From assembly GCA_027618255.1 (NCBI GenBank), contig JAQCFG010000016.1, positions 1-37,026 of the forward strand: a stretch of DNA of 37,026 nt. The letters are read 5' to 3'. The stretch is from Cyanobacteriota bacterium (GTDB lineage Bacteria; Cyanobacteriota; Vampirovibrionia; LMEP-6097). A model generated the notes under the pieces. It made no database searches. It saw only the letters and a program-made list of their open reading frames with translations, and had not been told where the DNA came from. Numbering within the stretch: position 1 is the stretch's first letter; the number at the start of each line of letters is the position of its first letter. The translations under genes were made by a program, and so were the position numbers. Of this stretch, positions 6,875-36,833 are shown one piece after another.

Positions 6875-8200
6875 TTACTCCGCAAGTATAGGCGAACCTA
6901 TCGGTATACCTACTATTGGCTTTACTGGACCTCCTATAGGCAAAGGATTTGTAGGGTACAGCCCTGGAGGATTTGTAGGGTACAGCCCTGGAGGATTTGT
7001 AGGGTACGGCCATGGAAAAATAAATTCTTGAGTTGCGCAATCTCCATGACCACCAATTTTTTCCCAATAACCCTCGCCATCTTCATAACTAAAATATGCA
7101 CACAGTGCTCCAGACTTATTCATATAAATATCTCCCATTGCTGGGTTTTCTGGTGGCGAGTTCAAAGGCTCTAAACGCATCGCATCACCAATATGAAGCT
7201 TACGTTGAGGGTCTAGCGTGCCAATACCAACTCGACTATCTGGCTTATAAAAAAATTCAGCCATTGGCAGCAAAGGGTCACTAACATTAGTAGTTGTAGC
7301 GTAATCACCAATATACAATGCCGCTTCACCATAGCCAAGTACTATGGATTTTTCTCGAGCTACATTGGTCAAGCCAGAACCGATTGCAATTGCATCACTA
7401 CTAACCACTAAATTACTAGAACCTATGACAACACTGCGGTTCGCTCTTACAGTGTTTGAATCACCAAGGACAACTGAGTGATATCCTTGAATGGAAGACC
7501 CAGAACCAAGTATAGAGGAGTCACCTCCTTCAATATGAGAATAAGTACCGACCACAAATGAGTTGTAATTCTTCACTTCTGGATCATTAGGTAGGCTATT
7601 CAGAAGTAAATTATTTGCTTTCACATTGCCAAAGCCAGCTTCACTAGCAGCAATAACCTTAGTTGTGACAGAACCACTAACCTCAAGATCACCACTAACA
7701 AAAAGCGTCCCTGTGCTAATATGATCTGCCGACACATTACCAAGATCAGCCTCAACTGTTTTAAGCTTATCCGAAATAGTACTCGTAGCTTTTATTTGAG
7801 AGCTAGTCAATGCAGCTGAATCAAGTCTGGTAATTCTAGCAGATGAAGCCCTTATACGACTAGAACTTAAAGTGCTAGTATGAAACCGGCTAGCGGAGCC
7901 AGTTCGTAGATTAATGTCTCGAGCATTTATTTTAATAGCTTTAATATCAGCAGCGACATCAAGCTTAGTGTTGATATTAACACTAGCAGCATTCACTTCT
8001 AAGCTAGGCTTACTAGTACCAAAGCCTACTGCAAGACTATTCGCCTTGTCATTTTTAAAATGATGTCCAATAGCAATTGCACCATTAACCGTTGCCTCTG
8101 CTCCATTACCAATACTTATTTTGTCGTCAGCTAATACCGCCAAACCTGTAAGCCCAATACAAGAGATTATCAAACTAATTTTTATAAAACTTTTTTTCAT
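6875..8200 (-). CDS. Secreted protein with YadA-head-like repeats and proline-rich tandem tail
   Basis: 441 residues from the third of three consecutive ATG codons. That start is chosen because GAGGTG (8208-8213) lies 7 nt upstream, an ideal Shine-Dalgarno spacing. A signal peptide (KKSFIKISLIISCIGLTGLAVLA) precedes short repeats of the kind found in trimeric autotransporter heads: ISIGNGAEATVNGAIAIGH, YSHIEGGDSSILGSGSSI, SVVLGDSNTVRANRSVVIGSS, AIAIGSGL. Then come RVGIGTLDPQRKLHIG, seen in tail-fibre-like and autotransporter stalk proteins, and a small domain with GDIYMNKSGALCAYFS. The tail holds three YPTNPPGL repeats. No outer-membrane anchor domain is present, so it is probably released or held by a partner. 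Function unknown; adhesion or surface coat is a guess. Confidence 0.75.
   Translation of the reverse strand: MKKSFIKISLIISCIGLTGLAVLADDKISIGNGAEATVNGAIAIGHHFKNDKANSLAVGFGTSKPSLEVNAASVNINTKLDVAADIKAIKINARDINLRTGSASRFHTSTLSSSRIRASSARITRLDSAALTSSQIKATSTISDKLKTVEADLGNVSADHISTGTLFVSGDLEVSGSVTTKVIAASEAGFGNVKANNLLLNSLPNDPEVKNYNSFVVGTYSHIEGGDSSILGSGSSIQGYHSVVLGDSNTVRANRSVVIGSSNLVVSSDAIAIGSGLTNVAREKSIVLGYGEAALYIGDYATTTNVSDPLLPMAEFFYKPDSRVGIGTLDPQRKLHIGDAMRLEPLNSPPENPAMGDIYMNKSGALCAYFSYEDGEGYWEKIGGHGDCATQEFIFPWPYPTNPPGLYPTNPPGLYPTNPLPIGGPVKPIVGIPIGSPILAE
6945..7016. repeat. Three tandem 24-bp repeats in coding sequence
   Basis: Copies at 6945-6968, 6969-6992 and 6993-7016; the first two are identical and the third has two changes. 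They encode YPTNPPGL-type octapeptides at the C-terminus of the YadA-head-like protein. As a whole number of codons, the copy number can change by replication slippage without a frameshift. Confidence 0.9.
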
Positions 8201-8258
8201 CATCATTCACCTCATCTTTCCTATTTTTGATACTTATCAACTCAATATTAAGGGCTAG

Positions 8259-10093: not shown

Positions 10094-11312
10094 ATTTAGT
10101 TTGATACCTCAACTGCATCAGCACAAATTTGGCAAAATTGGCTGCAATAGTTGCCTGTATCGCACCAATGATACCAAAGCGTGGGATAAAGATGCAATTC
10201 AGTCCTATATTTAGAAGAATACTAATAAGTTGAATTATATTTCTGCCTTTGTGATCCGCTTTAGCAGCCAGTAACATATTAGGTGCAGTATTGAGGAACC
10301 AAAGTAAAGCAATAAAAGCAAATAAAGGTGCCAATTGAATGGCAGCCTGATATTCTTCATTAAAGAACATCGCCAGGACTGGTTTTGAGAAGAAATAAAT
10401 ACCTAAGAATAAAGGCAAGCCAGCAATAAGCAATATCATGATTAATTTTCTTAGTATCGGCTTTAGTTCTTCAGTACTTTTGACTTTGTGTAGTTGTGGC
10501 AAAAATACTTGCCTAATAGAAAGTGGTATCATTTTAATCAAACGATTGAGCTTTGATGGAATAGAATAAAAAGCAACTGCGCTTGGCCCCAGAAAATAAT
10601 TAAGCATCAACCTATCTACCTTATTTTCAGCACCATCAAGAAAATCGAAAATCCCATAGAGTGCTGAATCCTTCATCATCGGCACAATATCTGGCAATGA
10701 AAGACGAGGCTTGATTAGATTCATCGTTGCAAAGAAAGATATCAAAAACTTGATCACTTCCATCAAAACAAAAGCATAAACAAGTTCAAGCAAACCTCCA
10801 AAATACTTGAAGACAACGAAAATTAATCCAAGTTTGATTATTTTATTAGTTGCTGTAATTGTAGCAATCAATTTAAATTGATCCAGTGCTCTTCTTACAA
10901 CTCCAAATATATTACTTAGGCTCATAAAAAATTCAATCAAAACATACAGTCCGATAATTTCTACCAAAACAGGGTCTGAGTTAAATTTACCGGCAAGAAA
11001 ATATATCAATAAGCCAATAGGAGTTCCAACTAGCAAGCGAACTAGCAAGGCATTACCCATTGCGTCCCTCAAACCCTCATTAAAACCATCAACATGATTT
11101 GAAGCATATTGAAAGATGGAGTTTTTGAAACCCATAGTATAAAAAAAAGAAAACATCTCAACAAATGCTTCTGCGGTAAGTAAAATTCCAAGCTCATGAG
11201 GCTTCAAGAATCGTGCAATTAATACAGTTGCAAAAGCAGTTGCCGGAATAACAACGACATTACTCAAACTTAAGTATGAAAATGATTTAAATAAATTTTT
11301 ACCTGTTTGCAT
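10080..11312 (-). CDS. Polysaccharide flippase (Wzx-like, MOP superfamily)
   Basis: 410 residues with roughly 12 hydrophobic helices and few charges between them, as in Wzx/RfbX-type lipid-linked oligosaccharide flippases. Recognisable features are the N-terminal amphipathic stretch then SNVVVIPATAFATVLIARFLKPHELGI, a central VDRLMLNYFLGPSAVAFYSIPSK, and GIIGAIQATIAANFAKF near the end. The family turns undecaprenyl-linked sugar units across the inner membrane. It overlaps galE by 14 bp and the first sulfotransferase by 14 bp, tying it to one polysaccharide pathway with an epimerase and two sulfotransferases. No polymerase (wzy) is seen in the window. Confidence 0.88.
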   Translation of the reverse strand: MQTGKNLFKSFSYLSLSNVVVIPATAFATVLIARFLKPHELGILLTAEAFVEMFSFFYTMGFKNSIFQYASNHVDGFNEGLRDAMGNALLVRLLVGTPIGLLIYFLAGKFNSDPVLVEIIGLYVLIEFFMSLSNIFGVVRRALDQFKLIATITATNKIIKLGLIFVVFKYFGGLLELVYAFVLMEVIKFLISFFATMNLIKPRLSLPDIVPMMKDSALYGIFDFLDGAENKVDRLMLNYFLGPSAVAFYSIPSKLNRLIKMIPLSIRQVFLPQLHKVKSTEELKPILRKLIMILLIAGLPLFLGIYFFSKPVLAMFFNEEYQAAIQLAPLFAFIALLWFLNTAPNMLLAAKADHKGRNIIQLISILLNIGLNCIFIPRFGIIGAIQATIAANFAKFVLMQLRYQTKYANK

Positions 11313-12396
11313 GAAATTTTTTGCGGTGCTCTAGCGCATCCTCGATTATTCTATCAATGGAAGCTCTCTCTGGCTTGAAAAACCCAGCAGCAATAGCTTT
11401 AGTGTTATCAGCAACTAAACGATCTGGATCACCAGCACGTCTATCAGAATACTCAAGCGGAATTGCTTGACCAGCCATCTTTTCTATTGACCGCACGATC
11501 TCCAGTACCGAGAATCCTTTGTTGTAGCCAAGATTGTATGCTTGATTAATGCCTTTCCCTGACTTAAAGAGATCTAAGGCAGCAATGTGCGCCTTACAAA
11601 GATCAACCACATGAATATAATCTCTGACTGCAGTACCGTCCGCAGTATTGTAGTCAGTACCAAACAACTTAAAAATCTCACGATGTCCAAGAAGAGCATC
11701 TAAAGCAATTGGAATAATATGACTCTCTGGTTCATGCTCCTCGCCAATATCACCATAAGCTCCTGCAACATTGAAATAACGCAATGCAATATATTTAAAA
11801 TCCTCTTCTTGAGACTTGAGTTCTAAGTATTTTTCAACCGCTAATTTATTTTCACCATAAGGATTGATTGGCATAAGCTCAGAATCTTCCTTCAAAGCAA
11901 TATCCATAATTGGTAGTCCATAAACAGCCGCCGTACTAGAAAAAATCAAATTCTTGATTCCAAGATTAATTAATTTATCAACCAATACCGTTGTCTTTAT
12001 ATAGTTGTTTTCTTTGTATAGACCCGGCTTCTCAACAGATTCAGCAACTTCAATAAATGCAGCAAAATGCATAACCGCTTCTATATTAGACTTGTTTTGA
12101 AAGTCGGAATTATCTCCAAAGGCAACACGCGCATTCCGCGCGGTTCCGACATTTTGTGTGTCGACATCACTAGCAAAACTTCGTTTTGCATGATGTCTAT
12201 TATGCTTCCCAACAATCTCCTCCAAAATCTTCTCATCAGAAATACATGCCTGATAAAATTCTATTCCATCAACTAAATGACTTGGTTTCGACCTTGAAAG
12301 ATCATCAATACCAATTACTTGATAGCCAGCCTCAAGTAGAAGTTTGCAAGCTATCGCTCCAATATATCCAGCACAACCTGTTACAAGTATTGCCAT
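11299..12396 (-). CDS. galE: UDP-glucose 4-epimerase with an in-frame palindromic element
   Basis: 365 residues from the ATG at 12396; a GTG 6 bp upstream is less likely. The NAD-binding GCAGYIG is at 7-13. The catalytic tyrosine and lysine are Y180 and K184 (PYGENK), with FSSTAAVYG before them. It makes UDP-galactose, a polysaccharide precursor, and leads the operon with the flippase and sulfotransferases. Residues 67-103 are not galE sequence. They are encoded exactly, codon for codon, by a 111-bp palindromic repeat. Without them, the protein reads EEIVGKHN then NIEAVMHFAA, which lines up with E. coli GalE at the loop between a helix and the next strand (ILHDHAIDTVIHFAG). The insert sits on the surface of the Rossmann fold, so activity may survive. 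TGG-TATTAT ends 8 nt before the start. Confidence 0.93.
   Translation of the reverse strand: MAILVTGCAGYIGAIACKLLLEAGYQVIGIDDLSRSKPSHLVDGIEFYQACISDEKILEEIVGKHNRHHAKRSFASDVDTQNVGTARNARVAFGDNSDFQNKSNIEAVMHFAAFIEVAESVEKPGLYKENNYIKTTVLVDKLINLGIKNLIFSSTAAVYGLPIMDIALKEDSELMPINPYGENKLAVEKYLELKSQEEDFKYIALRYFNVAGAYGDIGEEHEPESHIIPIALDALLGHREIFKLFGTDYNTADGTAVRDYIHVVDLCKAHIAALDLFKSGKGINQAYNLGYNKGFSVLEIVRSIEKMAGQAIPLEYSDRRAGDPDRLVADNTKAIAAGFFKPERASIDRIIEDALEHRKKFHANR
12088..12198. repeat. 111-bp coding palindromic element (copy in galE)
   Basis: Starts AGACTTGTTTTGAAAGTCGG on the plus strand and ends GATGTCT. It is exactly 37 codons and begins and ends on codon boundaries of galE, giving the peptide that starts RHHAKRSF and ends NSDFQNKS. 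57 bp (12088-12144) are identical to 35994-36050 in the beta-propeller gene. It contains the hairpins GACTT/AAGTC near the left end, GCGC/GCGC-type pairing around ATTC, and GCAAAAC-TTC-GTTTTGC (12173-12189). The used frame and its antisense frame are both free of stops. Confidence 0.93.
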
Positions 12397-12404
12397 AAGC
12401 ACTA

Positions 12405-12447: not shown

Positions 12448-12479
12448 AGACTTGTTTTGAAAGTCGGGATTGTCCCAGC
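12448..12479. repeat. Truncated copy of the 111-bp element, intergenic
   Basis: The first 20 bp (AGACTTGTTTTGAAAGTCGG) are identical to the left end of both full copies. The next ~12 bp (GATTGTCCCA) are a diverged version of AATTATCTCCA. Similarity then stops; an AGTCT at 12498-12502 might be a remnant of the other end. It lies in the divergent galE/korA spacer, where no reading frame has to be kept. Confidence 0.8.
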
Positions 12480-25190: not shown

Positions 25191-26654
25191 ATGGACAAAG
25201 CAATTAAATACCCAGAGATACTCAGCTCTAATATAAAAGCAATTAGCGCAATCATGGCCCCAATCCGAGCAAGCATCGGCCCTAAAGGCTTAGACGTAAT
25301 GTTGGTTGATGAGTTTGGAGCATTTACTTGCACTAATGATGGCGTTGAAATTCTTTCTAATATCAAAATCGATCACCCAGTTGCCAAATTAGCAGTTGAA
25401 GCAGCAAAATCACAAGAAACTCAAGTTGGTGATGGTACCAGTACTGTTGCAATCTTGTGTGATTCAATACTTCAAGCAGCACTTGAAAAAATTAATCTTG
25501 GCGCTAGCCCAAATAGGATTGCAGAAGGGATCAACATTGCCAATACACAAATCCTCAAAGAACTTCAAGCAAGCTCAATTCAAATCAAAGACCTTAAAGA
25601 CCCTGCTCTTAAAGCAATTAGTAAAATCTCAGCAAGAGGTTCAGAGGAGATTGCCAGCTTGATAACTGAAGCAATGAACAAATCTCAAGATCCAAATGAT
25701 TTAGCCAATTCAATTATTGCTCGTTGCGGCTTAGAATCCAAAGTGCTTGATGGACATTTCATTAAGAAAAAAACTCATTTTAAATACTCACGAGAATTTA
25801 GGAATATCAACCTAATTCTGGTTCAGGGTCCAATGGAACCAGAACCGATGAGCAGTGAAGCTATCAACACCAATGAAGGTGTCAAGAAATACGAAAACAA
25901 TATTCAGTCGTTAATGGAAGCTGCCAAAAAGATCATCAAAGCCGGTACCCAAGCGATTATTTGCTCAGCTTCGATGTTTCCAGCAATGGAGGAATTCTTT
26001 GCCAAAGAAGGTGTCTTTGTTTTAACTCACGTCAAAGATTCTGATATCAAAGCATTAGAAAAAATCTCCGGAGCAAAATTAATTACAAGAAATCAATTAA
26101 TCAGCTCTGATATAGAAACACTCAAAACCCTTAATAGCAAACTTAATTCCATTATTCTTGCTGAAGAGCTTGGTGGGTTTATTTTTCAAGGACCCAAAGC
26201 ACAAAGAGCAAGTATTTTAATTTCGGCAGAAACTGAAACCATCTTAAATGAACGCACACGTATAATAATTGATGCTTGCAAAGCAATGGCAGCTGCAGCC
26301 AAATCAGGTTATGTCTTAGGAGAAGGTATTGCAGAATTGAATATCATTCCTGCTATCGAAAAACTCAAAACTCAATATCAAGATGAAGAAATCATTTTGG
26401 GTATTGAAGTGATGATCAAAGCGCTGAGTACTGTATTTGATCAAATCGTATTAAATGCTGGTTTTAATCCTCACGAACTTAAAAACAAACTCAAGTCTTT
26501 GGGTACTGGCATTGATTTATCAACCGGCTCAAGTATTGACTTAATAGAACAAGGTATTCTAGATCCTCTTACTGTTAAAAGCTCGGCTTTCAAAATTGCT
26601 ACAGAAATAGCTTGTCAAATTTTGAGGATTAATATGATTGTGCAGGCTAGATAG
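25191..26654 (+). CDS. Archaeal-like (group II/III, TCP-1 family) chaperonin homologue
   Basis: 487 residues. The sequence follows thermosome/CCT chaperonins rather than GroEL. Evidence is IGPKGLDVMLVDEFG (29-43), TNDGVEIL (48-55), HPVAKLAVEAAKSQETQVGD (62-81) with the ATP-binding GDGTST (80-85), and the ending DPLTVKSSAFKIATEIACQILRI (458-480). D361 (in IIIDACKAM) lies at the catalytic aspartate position. GEG (377-379) replaces the usual GGG. An apical segment at about 213-245 could be the helical protrusion that replaces GroES in this group. It is ~40-60 residues shorter than typical thermosome subunits, mainly lacking the flexible tail. Bacterial archaeal-like chaperonins (group III) are known mostly in Firmicutes next to dnaK; here leuC-aroA follow. 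No groES-like gene is nearby. Confidence 0.88.
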   Translation: MDKAIKYPEILSSNIKAISAIMAPIRASIGPKGLDVMLVDEFGAFTCTNDGVEILSNIKIDHPVAKLAVEAAKSQETQVGDGTSTVAILCDSILQAALEKINLGASPNRIAEGINIANTQILKELQASSIQIKDLKDPALKAISKISARGSEEIASLITEAMNKSQDPNDLANSIIARCGLESKVLDGHFIKKKTHFKYSREFRNINLILVQGPMEPEPMSSEAINTNEGVKKYENNIQSLMEAAKKIIKAGTQAIICSASMFPAMEEFFAKEGVFVLTHVKDSDIKALEKISGAKLITRNQLISSDIETLKTLNSKLNSIILAEELGGFIFQGPKAQRASILISAETETILNERTRIIIDACKAMAAAAKSGYVLGEGIAELNIIPAIEKLKTQYQDEEIILGIEVMIKALSTVFDQIVLNAGFNPHELKNKLKSLGTGIDLSTGSSIDLIEQGILDPLTVKSSAFKIATEIACQILRINMIVQAR

Positions 26655-34038: not shown

Positions 34039-35205
34039 TTAATGATAGCAAAGCTCTGCAATAATCCGGTTACTTAGCATCTGCGCCTTATCTGTTAATT
34101 TGATATTTTTGTCACCACTGATAAAACCAGCTTTCTTCATCTTTTCAAGATTGTCTACATTAATATATGCTTGGATTTGCTGATCTAAATCCAAGCCCTC
34201 AGCAAGTCTCATTTGTAGCATTATTTTTTCTTCAAGTTTTTCTTCATTATCAATTTTTACAGATTCCACCTGGATTGCCGCAACTTTGATACCCCCATTG
34301 CTTGCAACGGTACTAGCATTAATATATTCATCCAAATCGCGAGTATTGTGATAACGGTAAGAATCTACGTAACCATGTGCACTCAAGCCAAAGGCATAAT
34401 ACTCCTGAGCACGCCAATAAATCAAGTTGTGTCTAGCTTCATGCCCGGGCTTTGCCCAATTACTAATCTCATAACGCTGTAAACCAGCTGTAGCAAAAAG
34501 TTCATTGGCTCTTTCATACATTGTTACCAAATCTTCCTCTTGAGGCAAAGTGGCATGTGAAGAATCCTTATATATTTTGCCATAAGGGGTATTTTTCTCA
34601 ATACTCAAACAATAAGCAGAGATATGTGGCGGTTTATAACTAAGCGCCGTCTCCACTGTTGAGAGCCAGGATTCAATAGTCTGTCCGGGCAAACCATAAA
34701 TCAAATCAAAGCTCCATGAATTTAAAGAATCAGGAAAGAGCTCAGTTAATACCTCAATAAAATTAATTGAGTCTTGCACACTATGTCCGCGCCCAAGTTT
34801 ATCTAATAATGCAGCATCAAAACTCTGCGCACCGAAACTAATTCTATTAACACCAAGCTCAAGAAATTGCTCAAGCTTGCTTCGATCTATAGTCCCAGGA
34901 TTCGCTTCTAGAGTGATTTCCACTGAATCAGCTAAGCTAAAGTGTTGCTTGACTTTATCCAAGACCTGGGCAAGCTCAGCTTTACTATGCACACTTGGAG
35001 TGCCGCCACCAAAAAATATAGTCTCAATAGTCCCAGGCTCAAATGCCCATTTTTGCATACGCGCATCAATCTCACGAACTAAAGCATCAATATAAACCTG
35101 ACGTTTATCATCTTCTTTGGCGAAACTAGCAAAATCACAATAAGGGCATTTGGTTTTGCAGAAAGGTAAATGAATATAGATACCGCGTGGTTTATCCAAA
35201 ATCAT
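34039..35205 (-). CDS. hemW: HemW-type radical SAM heme chaperone
   Basis: 388 residues. GIYIHLPFCKTKCPYCDFASF (8-28) carries the CX3CX2C cluster motif (C16, C20, C23) of radical SAM enzymes in its HemN/HemW form. GGGTPS and LEANPGT follow, then RISFGAQSFD and SFDLIYGLPGQT. Many HemW proteins were annotated as oxygen-independent coproporphyrinogen III oxidases, but the single compact CxxxCxxC start and the length fit the heme-chaperone branch, which inserts heme into respiratory enzymes. No other heme-synthesis gene is near. The ATG overlaps the stop of the beta-propeller gene by 4 bp, so both are coupled. Confidence 0.9.
   Translation of the reverse strand: MILDKPRGIYIHLPFCKTKCPYCDFASFAKEDDKRQVYIDALVREIDARMQKWAFEPGTIETIFFGGGTPSVHSKAELAQVLDKVKQHFSLADSVEITLEANPGTIDRSKLEQFLELGVNRISFGAQSFDAALLDKLGRGHSVQDSINFIEVLTELFPDSLNSWSFDLIYGLPGQTIESWLSTVETALSYKPPHISAYCLSIEKNTPYGKIYKDSSHATLPQEEDLVTMYERANELFATAGLQRYEISNWAKPGHEARHNLIYWRAQEYYAFGLSAHGYVDSYRYHNTRDLDEYINASTVASNGGIKVAAIQVESVKIDNEEKLEEKIMLQMRLAEGLDLDQQIQAYINVDNLEKMKKAGFISGDKNIKLTDKAQMLSNRIIAELCYH
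34042..34050 (-). promoter_or_regulatory. Extended -10-like box before the AsmA-like gene
   Basis: TGC-TATCAT on the minus strand lies inside the last codons of hemW and ends 8 nt before the ATG at 34033. It fits the pattern at other genes but could be chance within coding sequence. Confidence 0.3.
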
Positions 35206-36833
35206 AATGCCAACAAAATACTAGAACTATCACCAATATCAATTTTGTGAACCATGGACCAAGTAGCAAGATCAAAAACTGCGATTGTATTTGTGCCAGA
35301 ACTTGAAATCAACACAAACTTGCCAGTATTAGCAAAAGTCATATTTTGTGGATCAATAATATCAGGAGCGAGATTGGCATTTTCAACCGAATAAGACTTC
35401 TCAAAATCAATTTTTGAAACAAAGGCTGCATCTTGGTTTGAGCCAAGTGCATAAACATGCTTATTGTCTTTTGCCAGCAAAAGATCTATTGGTACATAAT
35501 CTAAATCAATTGAAGAAATCAATTGACTGGTAACTGCATCAAGTACTAAAACCTTACCTTGAACAGCAAATTGTTTTTGAGGATTGGCATTAATTGCTTC
35601 AACTGCCACAAAAACCTTGGATTCATTTACAGCAAGTGCATGTGGTACATAACGAAAATCCTTGCTTAATAAATTCAAATCAAGAGTCTTAGACATTCGG
35701 TAATCAAAACTATTAATACTCAACAAACTTGACTTTGACTTCGACAGCATCATAATCTGCACTGGTTCAGCACTACTACGTGAGACTTTAATCATATCAG
35801 AGCAACCAGCAGGAATAGTGATTGTCTTAATGAGCCTCTTTGCTTTAATATCGACAACAAAAATATTAGACCCAAGGCTATCTAAGAAATATGCGACTCC
35901 ATTTTCTTTTTCAATCTGAAAATCACGCAAACCAGCTACCAGACCGAGGTCAGTTAGGTCAAACAGTTCAGTCATCTCTAAGTTTGATTCAATAGACTTG
36001 TTTTGAAAGTCGGAATTATCTCCAAAGGCAACACGCGCATTCCGCGCGGTTGCTACCTTTGTTTGATCAACCTGTACATCGAAACTTCGTTTCGAAACAG
36101 GTCTAAATATTTCCTCATTAGGTTTTAACGAATCATATTTAATTTCGGGACTAGTAATCTGAAAAACTTTTGCTTGATGGTAATCAAGCAAATACAAATC
36201 ACCATCGATGGTTTTAATTTCAGATACATAACTAAGTCCAGCACTCATCTCATCCAAATTCTCAACCAATGGTAGATCACTAAAACCAACTCGTTTGAGT
36301 AATCCTGTTTTAATAGAATAAGAAATCGCATCAATAGGCTTATTAGCTTTTTCTTCTAATAATCTCTCTTTGAAACGCAACTCTCTATCAGAAGCAAGCT
36401 CTACGCTTCTTAAGCTAAGCGGCAAGCGCCCCATTGTAATAGCTAAATCACGCGGTAACTCAAAGCTGTCCGGTACCAAGAAAGTGGGGACGATATTAGT
36501 TGCAAGTATCTTTGCTTGAATTTGTGGATCAAAGAAATCAAAACTTTTGACAGTCTTGTTGACAATAGGTGTAAAAATCCAATCGTTAATCTCATCAGAA
36601 AATAGAAAATCGTCTCCATCTTTAATAACTAATTGAATCTCAGAGCCGTTACTAACTTGAAGAGCTTTGTTTTCGGATCTAAACAACAACCAAGTTTTGT
36701 TATCAGCTTGCATCAAACCATCTGCTCTTTCTTTTGCATTCTTATAGTGCTGTTTAAACTCAGTAACTATTGCTTCAGGCAAAGCTGCTGAAGCTGGAAG
36801 AAATATCAGTAATAGAGCAATTAATAAACGCAC
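35202..36833 (-). CDS. Exported beta-propeller-like protein with an in-frame palindromic element
   Basis: 543 residues from a GTG at 36833. The signal peptide RLLIALLLIFLPASA begins there and no ATG is available. The mature part has repeated four-strand blades of the YncE/NHL kind. Examples are VSEIKTIDGDLYLLDYHQAKVFQI, VAYFLDSLGSNIFVVDIKAKRLIKTITI, GKVLVLDAVTSQLISSIDL and GKFVLISSSGTNTIAVFDLATWSMVHKIDIG. It probably acts in the periplasm as a binding scaffold; no ligand can be named. Residues 244-280 come exactly from the 111-bp palindromic repeat also found in galE, in the same frame, between PNEEIF and IESNLEMTELF. It overlaps hemW by 4 bp. TAGAAT ends 7 nt before the start. Confidence 0.78.
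   Translation of the reverse strand: MRLLIALLLIFLPASAALPEAIVTEFKQHYKNAKERADGLMQADNKTWLLFRSENKALQVSNGSEIQLVIKDGDDFLFSDEINDWIFTPIVNKTVKSFDFFDPQIQAKILATNIVPTFLVPDSFELPRDLAITMGRLPLSLRSVELASDRELRFKERLLEEKANKPIDAISYSIKTGLLKRVGFSDLPLVENLDEMSAGLSYVSEIKTIDGDLYLLDYHQAKVFQITSPEIKYDSLKPNEEIFRPVSKRSFDVQVDQTKVATARNARVAFGDNSDFQNKSIESNLEMTELFDLTDLGLVAGLRDFQIEKENGVAYFLDSLGSNIFVVDIKAKRLIKTITIPAGCSDMIKVSRSSAEPVQIMMLSKSKSSLLSINSFDYRMSKTLDLNLLSKDFRYVPHALAVNESKVFVAVEAINANPQKQFAVQGKVLVLDAVTSQLISSIDLDYVPIDLLLAKDNKHVYALGSNQDAAFVSKIDFEKSYSVENANLAPDIIDPQNMTFANTGKFVLISSSGTNTIAVFDLATWSMVHKIDIGDSSSILLAL
35994..36104. repeat. 111-bp coding palindromic element (copy in the beta-propeller gene)
   Basis: The plus strand starts AGACTTGTTTTGAAAGTCGG and ends TTTCGAAACAGGTCT. 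The outer 15 bp at each end are near-perfect inverted repeats. It has the same length as the galE copy, falls on the same codon boundary and encodes a peptide starting RPVSKRSF and ending NSDFQNKS. 35994-36050 is identical to 12088-12144; the rest has drifted. The hairpin TCGAAAC-TTC-GTTTCGA (36079-36095) corresponds to GCAAAAC-TTC-GTTTTGC in galE, with two base pairs exchanged on both sides of the stem. Confidence 0.93.

Follow-up and report, generated by a model that had tools for sequence, protein, structure and literature searches.

Selfish DNA that inserts in frame into functional genes has long been exemplified chiefly by the Rickettsia palindromic elements (RPE). In the parts of two reviews that deal with them (PMC2229807, PMC10969869), no transposase is named for these elements. 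Palindromes of this kind can also be shaped during replication, as template switching creates and maintains hairpins and yields multi-base compensatory changes (PMC8794818).

The window analyzed here, a 37,026-nucleotide stretch from a genome of the cyanobacterial phylum, harbors a 111-bp hairpin element inside genes. The original prediction placed one copy in an open reading frame at 35994-36104 and another full copy in galE, and both were confirmed. We consider it highly probable that the element is an IS5-family MITE which is read through in frame within genes, that its stems are re-paired partly by template switching, and that the two window copies differ by recombination. The relevant features are as follows.

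11299-12402, minus strand: galE-like NAD-dependent epimerase gene with an in-frame copy
12088-12198, minus strand: second full copy, in galE, A-type in its left half and B-type in its right half; flanks AAT/AAT
12448-12474, minus strand: third copy, a truncated right-end fragment between galE and a divergently transcribed 2-oxoacid oxidoreductase gene
35202-36833, minus strand: 543-codon open reading frame for a secreted-looking protein of beta-propeller type (its YNCE match is weak and below the cut-off), host gene of the copy at 35994-36104
35994-36104, minus strand: MITE copy of subfamily B, 111 bp, 96% identical to the B consensus (hereafter the propeller-gene copy)
35991-35993: target duplication on the element-downstream side, ATT in element orientation, assigned from the family-wide ANT duplication
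36105-36107: degenerate target duplication on the element-upstream side, TTT in element orientation versus ATT
36069-36103, minus strand: hairpin H1 of the propeller-gene copy, whose left arm doubles as the left terminal inverted repeat
36079-36095, minus strand: inner 7-bp stem of H1, the stem named in the original prediction
36027-36057, minus strand: hairpin H2 of the same copy, with outer stem GCAAC/GTTGC and inner stem CGCGC/GCGCG
35995-36011, minus strand: terminal hairpin H3 of the same copy, with the right terminal inverted repeat (GACTTTCAAAACAAGTC)

Two other regions of the window stand apart from the element. Three 24-bp tandem repeats at 6944-7015 (AGGATTTGTAGGGTACAGCCCTGG) encode YPTNPPGL-like repeats close to the C-terminus of a head-domain-like surface protein (6875-8206), and a Cpn60/TCP-1 family protein with a strongly diverged look is encoded at 25191-26654, which may be a second, non-canonical chaperonin.

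Copies, ends and mobilization of the element

The comparison of two copies on which the prediction was built considerably underestimated the family. With the galE copy as the query, 45 matches were obtained in the window genome (G000, 1.99 Mb), and a second consensus gave 44 further matches that overlapped in part with the first set. The resulting catalogue comprised 199 places in three genomes (G000, G001 and G004), each represented by the stretches around the matches only; G001 and G002 belong to the same genus as G000, and G004 to the same family. When copies covering at least 60% of a consensus were counted as substantial, there were about 86 in G000, 42 in G001 and 37 in G004, the latter two being counts of sampled loci. 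Of the subfamilies, G000 contains chiefly A, B and C, G001 contains A and B, and G004 contains D, E and F; none of the element ends was found in G002. Types E and F have interiors unlike those of types A to D, yet they share the same ends and duplication. Viral contigs searched with the 3' core gave no match, and in the genome collection the pattern was found in one lake metagenome bin only, the window's own relatives (possibly absent there) aside.

The element ends, AGACNTNNTGCRAAA, are about 15 bp long, and most full copies read AGAC...GTCT or close to it. The terminal inverted repeats were kept in both window copies, as predicted, with an imperfect match between the left and right repeats in types A to D. 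An exact 3-bp target duplication flanked 54 of the 82 copies with both ends, and all 54 duplications were A-N-T with a matching middle base (A/A in 27, T/T in 21, G/G in 3 and C/C in 3). Among the same 82 copies, a duplication of 2 bp was found in two and of 1 bp in three, while duplications of 4-6 bp were found in none. The 3-bp ANT duplication was present in all 20 of 20 copies in G004, and the reversed end pattern, used as a control in the relatives' genomes, was nearly absent. A 3-bp ANT duplication together with an ISL2-type transposase would mark the ISL2 subgroup of the IS5 family, of which the element is at most a candidate member. The ISL2 elements of Amoebophilus are listed without direct repeats (PMC3196728).

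The insertion sites could be compared with those of relatives. At the galE locus the window reads AAGCATAAT-[111 bp]-AATATAGAA, and the sister genome G001 reads AAGCATAATATAGAA, with a single AAT and no element (AAGCATAAT|ATAGAA), which makes it a precise empty site. Orthologues of the beta-propeller gene in G001 and G002 lack the insertion at the site of the propeller-gene copy, and in G002 the alignment runs straight through this site. The G001 orthologue has 3 bp beyond a clean empty site there (ATATTAATCGAA). These three additional bases and the degenerate TTT/ATT flanks point either to loss of the duplication or to the footprint of an excised copy in G001. The same G001 orthologue (L187, G001:C8) carries an A-type copy elsewhere in the gene, so this gene is hit at two positions in two species.

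Elements with the same ends that encode a transposase were found within the phylum. A scan of 244 genomes detected the element ends in 36 of them, with zero matches of the backward control in each genome, and at several of those places the ends bounded complete insertion sequences of 0.9-1.1 kb with A-N-T duplications. The protein of such insertion sequences matched NCBIfam NF033581 (transpos_IS5_4) with an E value of 5.6e-52, passing the cut-off, as well as Pfam PF13359 (DDE_Tnp_4) and PF13613 (HTH_Tnp_4). In addition, annotated cyanobacterial relatives of the IS702, ISCysp19 and ISMae4 families have similar ends. Within the window's class, a decayed IS5 transposase lies 19 bp off an end of the same type in G022, and G004 contains a transposase fragment near a degenerate end. 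Two internally deleted IS5 derivatives, L260 and L261, of 580 and 311 bp, show the route from an IS5 element to a MITE.

The element is 111 bp long, multi-copy and without a transposase gene, and it combines terminal inverted repeats, a target duplication, an empty site in relatives and ends common with an autonomous element, which together identify it as a MITE whose ends are of the IS5 family. From the ends, the duplication, the empty site and the IS5 elements of the same phylum, all directly observed, we infer that an IS702/ISMae4-like transposase (transpos_IS5_4) moved it. Such a transposase would recognize the terminal AGACNTNNTGCRAAA and insert the MITE at A-N-T, duplicating these 3 bp. 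Points against this reading are the imperfect terminal repeats of types A to D, and the degenerate duplication of the propeller-gene copy with the three extra bases in its G001 orthologue. A further one is that the search of G000 yielded no complete transposase between such ends: PF13359 gave no match and the sole PF01609 match lacked a proper end pair, so the mobilizer is absent, unassembled or lost in this genome. The PF01609 transposases of the three host genomes were ruled out as the mobilizer, as matching ends were absent.

Two further repeats were seen in related genomes. In G022, G012 and G036 (L208-L227), which represent another family of the class, a different MITE has the same ends and ANT duplication and measures 147-200 bp, mostly 196-200 bp with duplications. 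In G004, type-E copies are nested at nearly the same spot in several loci (L194, L189, L201 and L206) of a dispersed repeat about 490 bp long; this repeat was considered as an autonomous element and rejected, being a host repeat with MITEs nested in it.

Reading frames of the genic copies

Together with its duplication, the 111-bp element inserts 114 bp, or 38 codons. An internal copy was scored as in frame when an open reading frame ran through it with at least 12 codons on each side, and 41 copies satisfied this definition (24 of 86 in G000, 15 of 42 in G001 and 2 of 37 in G004). The propeller-gene copy is read through as 37 codons, RPVSKRSFDVQVDQTKVATARNARVAFGDNSDFQNKS. Because the insertion spans 38 codons and its main frame lacks stops, insertions into genes can be read through, and the genic copies probably add 38 residues to the host protein. 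The hosts checked against Pfam included a MurE-like ligase, RarA/MgsA, RNase HII, a uracil-5 methyltransferase, a KdsB-type cytidylyltransferase, a biotin ligase, a PurL-like synthase and a histidine kinase.

In 18 further cases the copy is close to a reading-frame end, and 9 of the 18 are N-terminal insertions whose reverse-strand frame is hydrophobic. Several N-terminal copies in the hydrophobic frame sit directly ahead of segments that resemble signal peptides. The N-terminal copies on the opposite strand include G000:C7:4884, C19:21230, C8:2687 and C42:13565 and G001:C113:5964 and C20:18162, and two N-terminal insertion sites are common to G000 and G001.

The prediction had stated that more than the peptide is preserved. 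This holds insofar as the majority of copies lie outside genes, but the frame matters as well, as 33 of the 41 in-frame copies share a single one. It might therefore be argued that the peptide itself is the conserved unit, i.e., that the element is a selected coding cassette whose palindromes are a by-product. Type A has four stop-free frames, which exceeds shuffled sequences (P 0.002), and despite this choice the genic copies are concentrated in one frame; in 19 of the 25 internal type A cases it is the hydrophilic frame RHPAK...RRKS. However, the open frames of types B and D are no more numerous than in shuffles, among the recent D copies in G004 a single one falls within a detected reading frame, and types E and F and the 110-bp C copies break the frame or are closed in the plus frame and are still mobile. 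As the peptide is also found in unrelated host proteins and the majority of copies lie outside genes, we regard selection for the peptide as very unlikely.

A location in conserved enzymes together with strong folding would also suit an insert that is excised from the mRNA or bypassed during translation, such as a mobile intron or a bypass element, and is thus absent from the protein. The genic copies lack stops and strongly favor one frame, neither of which removal or bypass would call for. Moreover, the Rfam search of the window returned no family at the gathering score and no intron family, and a DDE transposon is what the ends and target duplication correspond to. Such an explanation is extremely unlikely, and an in-frame read-through of the MITE is favored.

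Subfamily mosaicism and the pairing of the hairpins

The identity over 57 bp between the galE and propeller-gene copies, which the prediction had noted, was confirmed for the final 57 bp read in element orientation; within the first 54 bp, 21 positions (39%) differ rather than about half. It had been suggested that the identical half could be a functional core or recently converted, with the other half drifting. The identity of the 57-bp block between the two copies is compatible with such a reading, but the alignment of all copies places both halves of both copies in well-defined subfamilies. The left 55 bp of the galE copy match A at 51 of 55 positions and B at 34 of 55, and its right 56 bp match B at 56 of 56; thus the supposedly drifting half is simply A-type. 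The propeller-gene copy is B-type all along (51 of 55 on the left and 56 of 56 on the right), and a mosaic of the same A/B style occurs in another copy, G000:C37:3658. Homogenization of one half, or a functional core within it, is accordingly highly improbable. Instead, the galE copy is a recombinant between subfamilies A and B, which accounts for the difference between the halves of the two window copies.

The prediction also described a stem, GCAAAAC/GTTTTGC in galE, that became TCGAAAC/GTTTCGA in the propeller-gene copy, two of its seven pairs having changed on both sides; this was borne out. Likewise, both window copies folded better than all 200 of 200 dinucleotide shuffles when treated as single-stranded DNA (z -3.9 and -5.2) or as RNA (z -4.1 and -5.2). 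It was concluded from these paired changes that selection, or else the copying mechanism, preserves folding. One alternative is thus a function of the folded RNA or single-stranded DNA, for example in mRNA stability or transposition, with selection keeping the pairs by compensatory mutation.

Covariation was examined in an alignment of 108 unique full copies of types A to D, in which H1 comprises 14 pairs and H2 comprises 11. An R-scape-like test of all 1540 pairs against simulations on a FastTree tree gave none at E<0.05 (best 0.41), with the structure pairs holding most of the top ranks; no single pair was significant because most H1 changes separate whole subfamilies. An event test restricted to the stems was clear. 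It counted 32 compensated branch events, compared with a mean of 1.7 and a maximum of 6 under the tree null (400 simulations), and every part of the hairpins was above all its simulations, including the 7-bp stem of the original prediction (4 compensated events against a mean of 0.16 and a maximum of 3). About 5 of the 32 events derive from G001_C5_18376 and G001_C89_4564, which are probably mis-registered in H2, and the result is unchanged by them. Thus the predicted excess of paired substitutions was upheld across all copies by the event test, and not by the test of individual pairs.

Variation was greatest in the inner stem of H2, where pairing was nonetheless kept (GTGC/GCAC, CATGC/GCATG, CATAC/GTATG, GTAG/CTAC, GTGT/ACAC, CGCGC/GCGCG, CGAGC/GCTCG, CGCAAC/GTTGCG and CGCC/GGCG). 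In type A, the three-base loop of H1 (element positions 17-19) has a mean entropy of 1.67 bits, compared with 0.13-0.18 bits in the arms.

The excess of compensated events in both H1 and H2 and the folding of both window copies are what a functional fold would predict. The same may be said of the three-hairpin layout that types E and F retain despite their completely different interiors, and of the left and right terminal repeats, which co-vary over six subfamilies (permutation P about 0.003). Furthermore, four orthologous pairs of copies in G000 and G001 showed none of their 18 differences in the H1 arms (chance about 0.6%), although one partial orthologous pair does differ there. These unchanged arms could reflect some constraint after insertion, possibly one on the ends or stems of mobile copies. 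Against this, one-sided stem changes numbered 127, compared with the 32 that were compensated. The recombination junction of the galE copy disrupts the outer stem of H2, with CGGAAC opposite GTTGCC and four of six pairs remaining, and folding is therefore not preserved throughout. No Rfam family matched, and pairing was in several copies evidently restored by copying, as described below. A selected fold is, on balance, rather unlikely, and that selection preserves folding does not follow from the paired changes.

The second half of the predicted alternative, the copying mechanism, was better supported. In four copies (three of type B and one of type C), the left arm has been replaced by a sequence that exactly complements 17 nt of the right arm; these rewritten left arms include bases that are absent from the normal left arm; an older A copy, C39:10479, has a similar rewrite with two mismatches. 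In the copy G000:C5:14690 (L024), the upstream host flank CTTTTATACATT recurs reverse-complemented within the element, just past the right arm of H1, as an exact inverted match of 20 nt that spans the element's end. The simplest explanation of this pattern is copying off a folded-back strand. As this copy shows, fold-back copying can keep hairpins paired without selection on the folded molecule. Loop inversion, which is a mark of template switching, was not seen when the loop counts were inspected by eye (no TTC, GGG or AGG versus GAA, CCC or CCT).

The footprint of template switching is present in a few copies, and its role may extend to the remaining compensated events; ordinary double substitution under selection could be another source of most compensated pairs. 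The element is a string of three hairpins, and in the mechanism that we propose a mutated arm can be re-copied from the other arm during DNA synthesis by fold-back template switching. Combined with a constraint that mobile copies may be under at their ends, this would generate the compensatory changes; the half-difference between the window copies arises from one copy being a recombinant of two subfamilies. A stronger version, in which pairing is renewed mainly by fold-back template switching, so that covariation arises from mutation alone and a frame-neutral 114-bp insertion spreads as a 38-codon cassette, is put forward tentatively, as its probability is somewhat below even.

Comparison with known systems

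The closest relatives by their ends are the cyanobacterial IS5 elements (IS702, ISMae4 and ISCysp19; NF033581), which have terminal repeats AGACCTCTTGCAAAA(GTC) and a 3-bp A-N-T duplication, as does the MITE, and transposase remnants lie beside such ends in the window's class too. These elements are 0.9-1.1 kb long and encode a transposase, whereas the MITE is 111 bp long, has no transposase and possesses its own interior of three hairpins.

Small non-autonomous elements with terminal repeats and target duplications, as here, include the 107-bp Correia element, ERIC, YPAL and the Coxiella QMITE, according to the relevant parts of the two reviews (PMC2229807, PMC10969869), and the same parts describe IS-derived bacterial MITEs with reading frames that occasionally form in-frame fusions, as here. 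In comparison with Correia, ERIC, YPAL and QMITE as they are described there, the present element has other ends and hosts, its stems co-vary, and its subfamilies coexist and recombine.

The rewriting of arms as perfect reverse complements, with compensatory changes made in one event, resembles the template-switch hairpins described in RNA genes (PMC8794818); here it is found in a mobile element, with the host flank as the template in one copy. Because fold-back copying was caught in the act in this MITE family, compensatory substitutions in a hairpin alone should not be taken as proof of selection on the fold.

The RPE are similar in that, in the portions of the reviews concerned with them, they measure 105-150 bp, have hairpins, terminal inverted repeats and an internal open frame, and occur in many copies in frame within unrelated metabolic genes (PMC2229807, PMC10969869). 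This likeness is one of habit, and the hosts differ. Rather than a Rickettsia, the host of the MITE is a member of the phylum of G190, whose transposase, encoded between ends of the same type, is 100% identical to one of Geminocystis sp. NIES-3709, and a search for an alpha-type tmRNA gave none. Within the cyanobacterial phylum the window falls into a different class, probably the non-photosynthetic Vampirovibrionia. We would not file the MITE as an RPE, its host being of another phylum. The target duplication, which is known for the MITE, is given as '?' for RPE in the part of the 2007 review that covers them (PMC2229807), and the ends of the MITE, unlike those of RPE, are traceable to an IS5 transposase. 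A coding habit similar to that of RPE is found here in the cyanobacterial phylum, and as the ends, duplication, empty site and transposase family are all visible here, its mechanism becomes testable.
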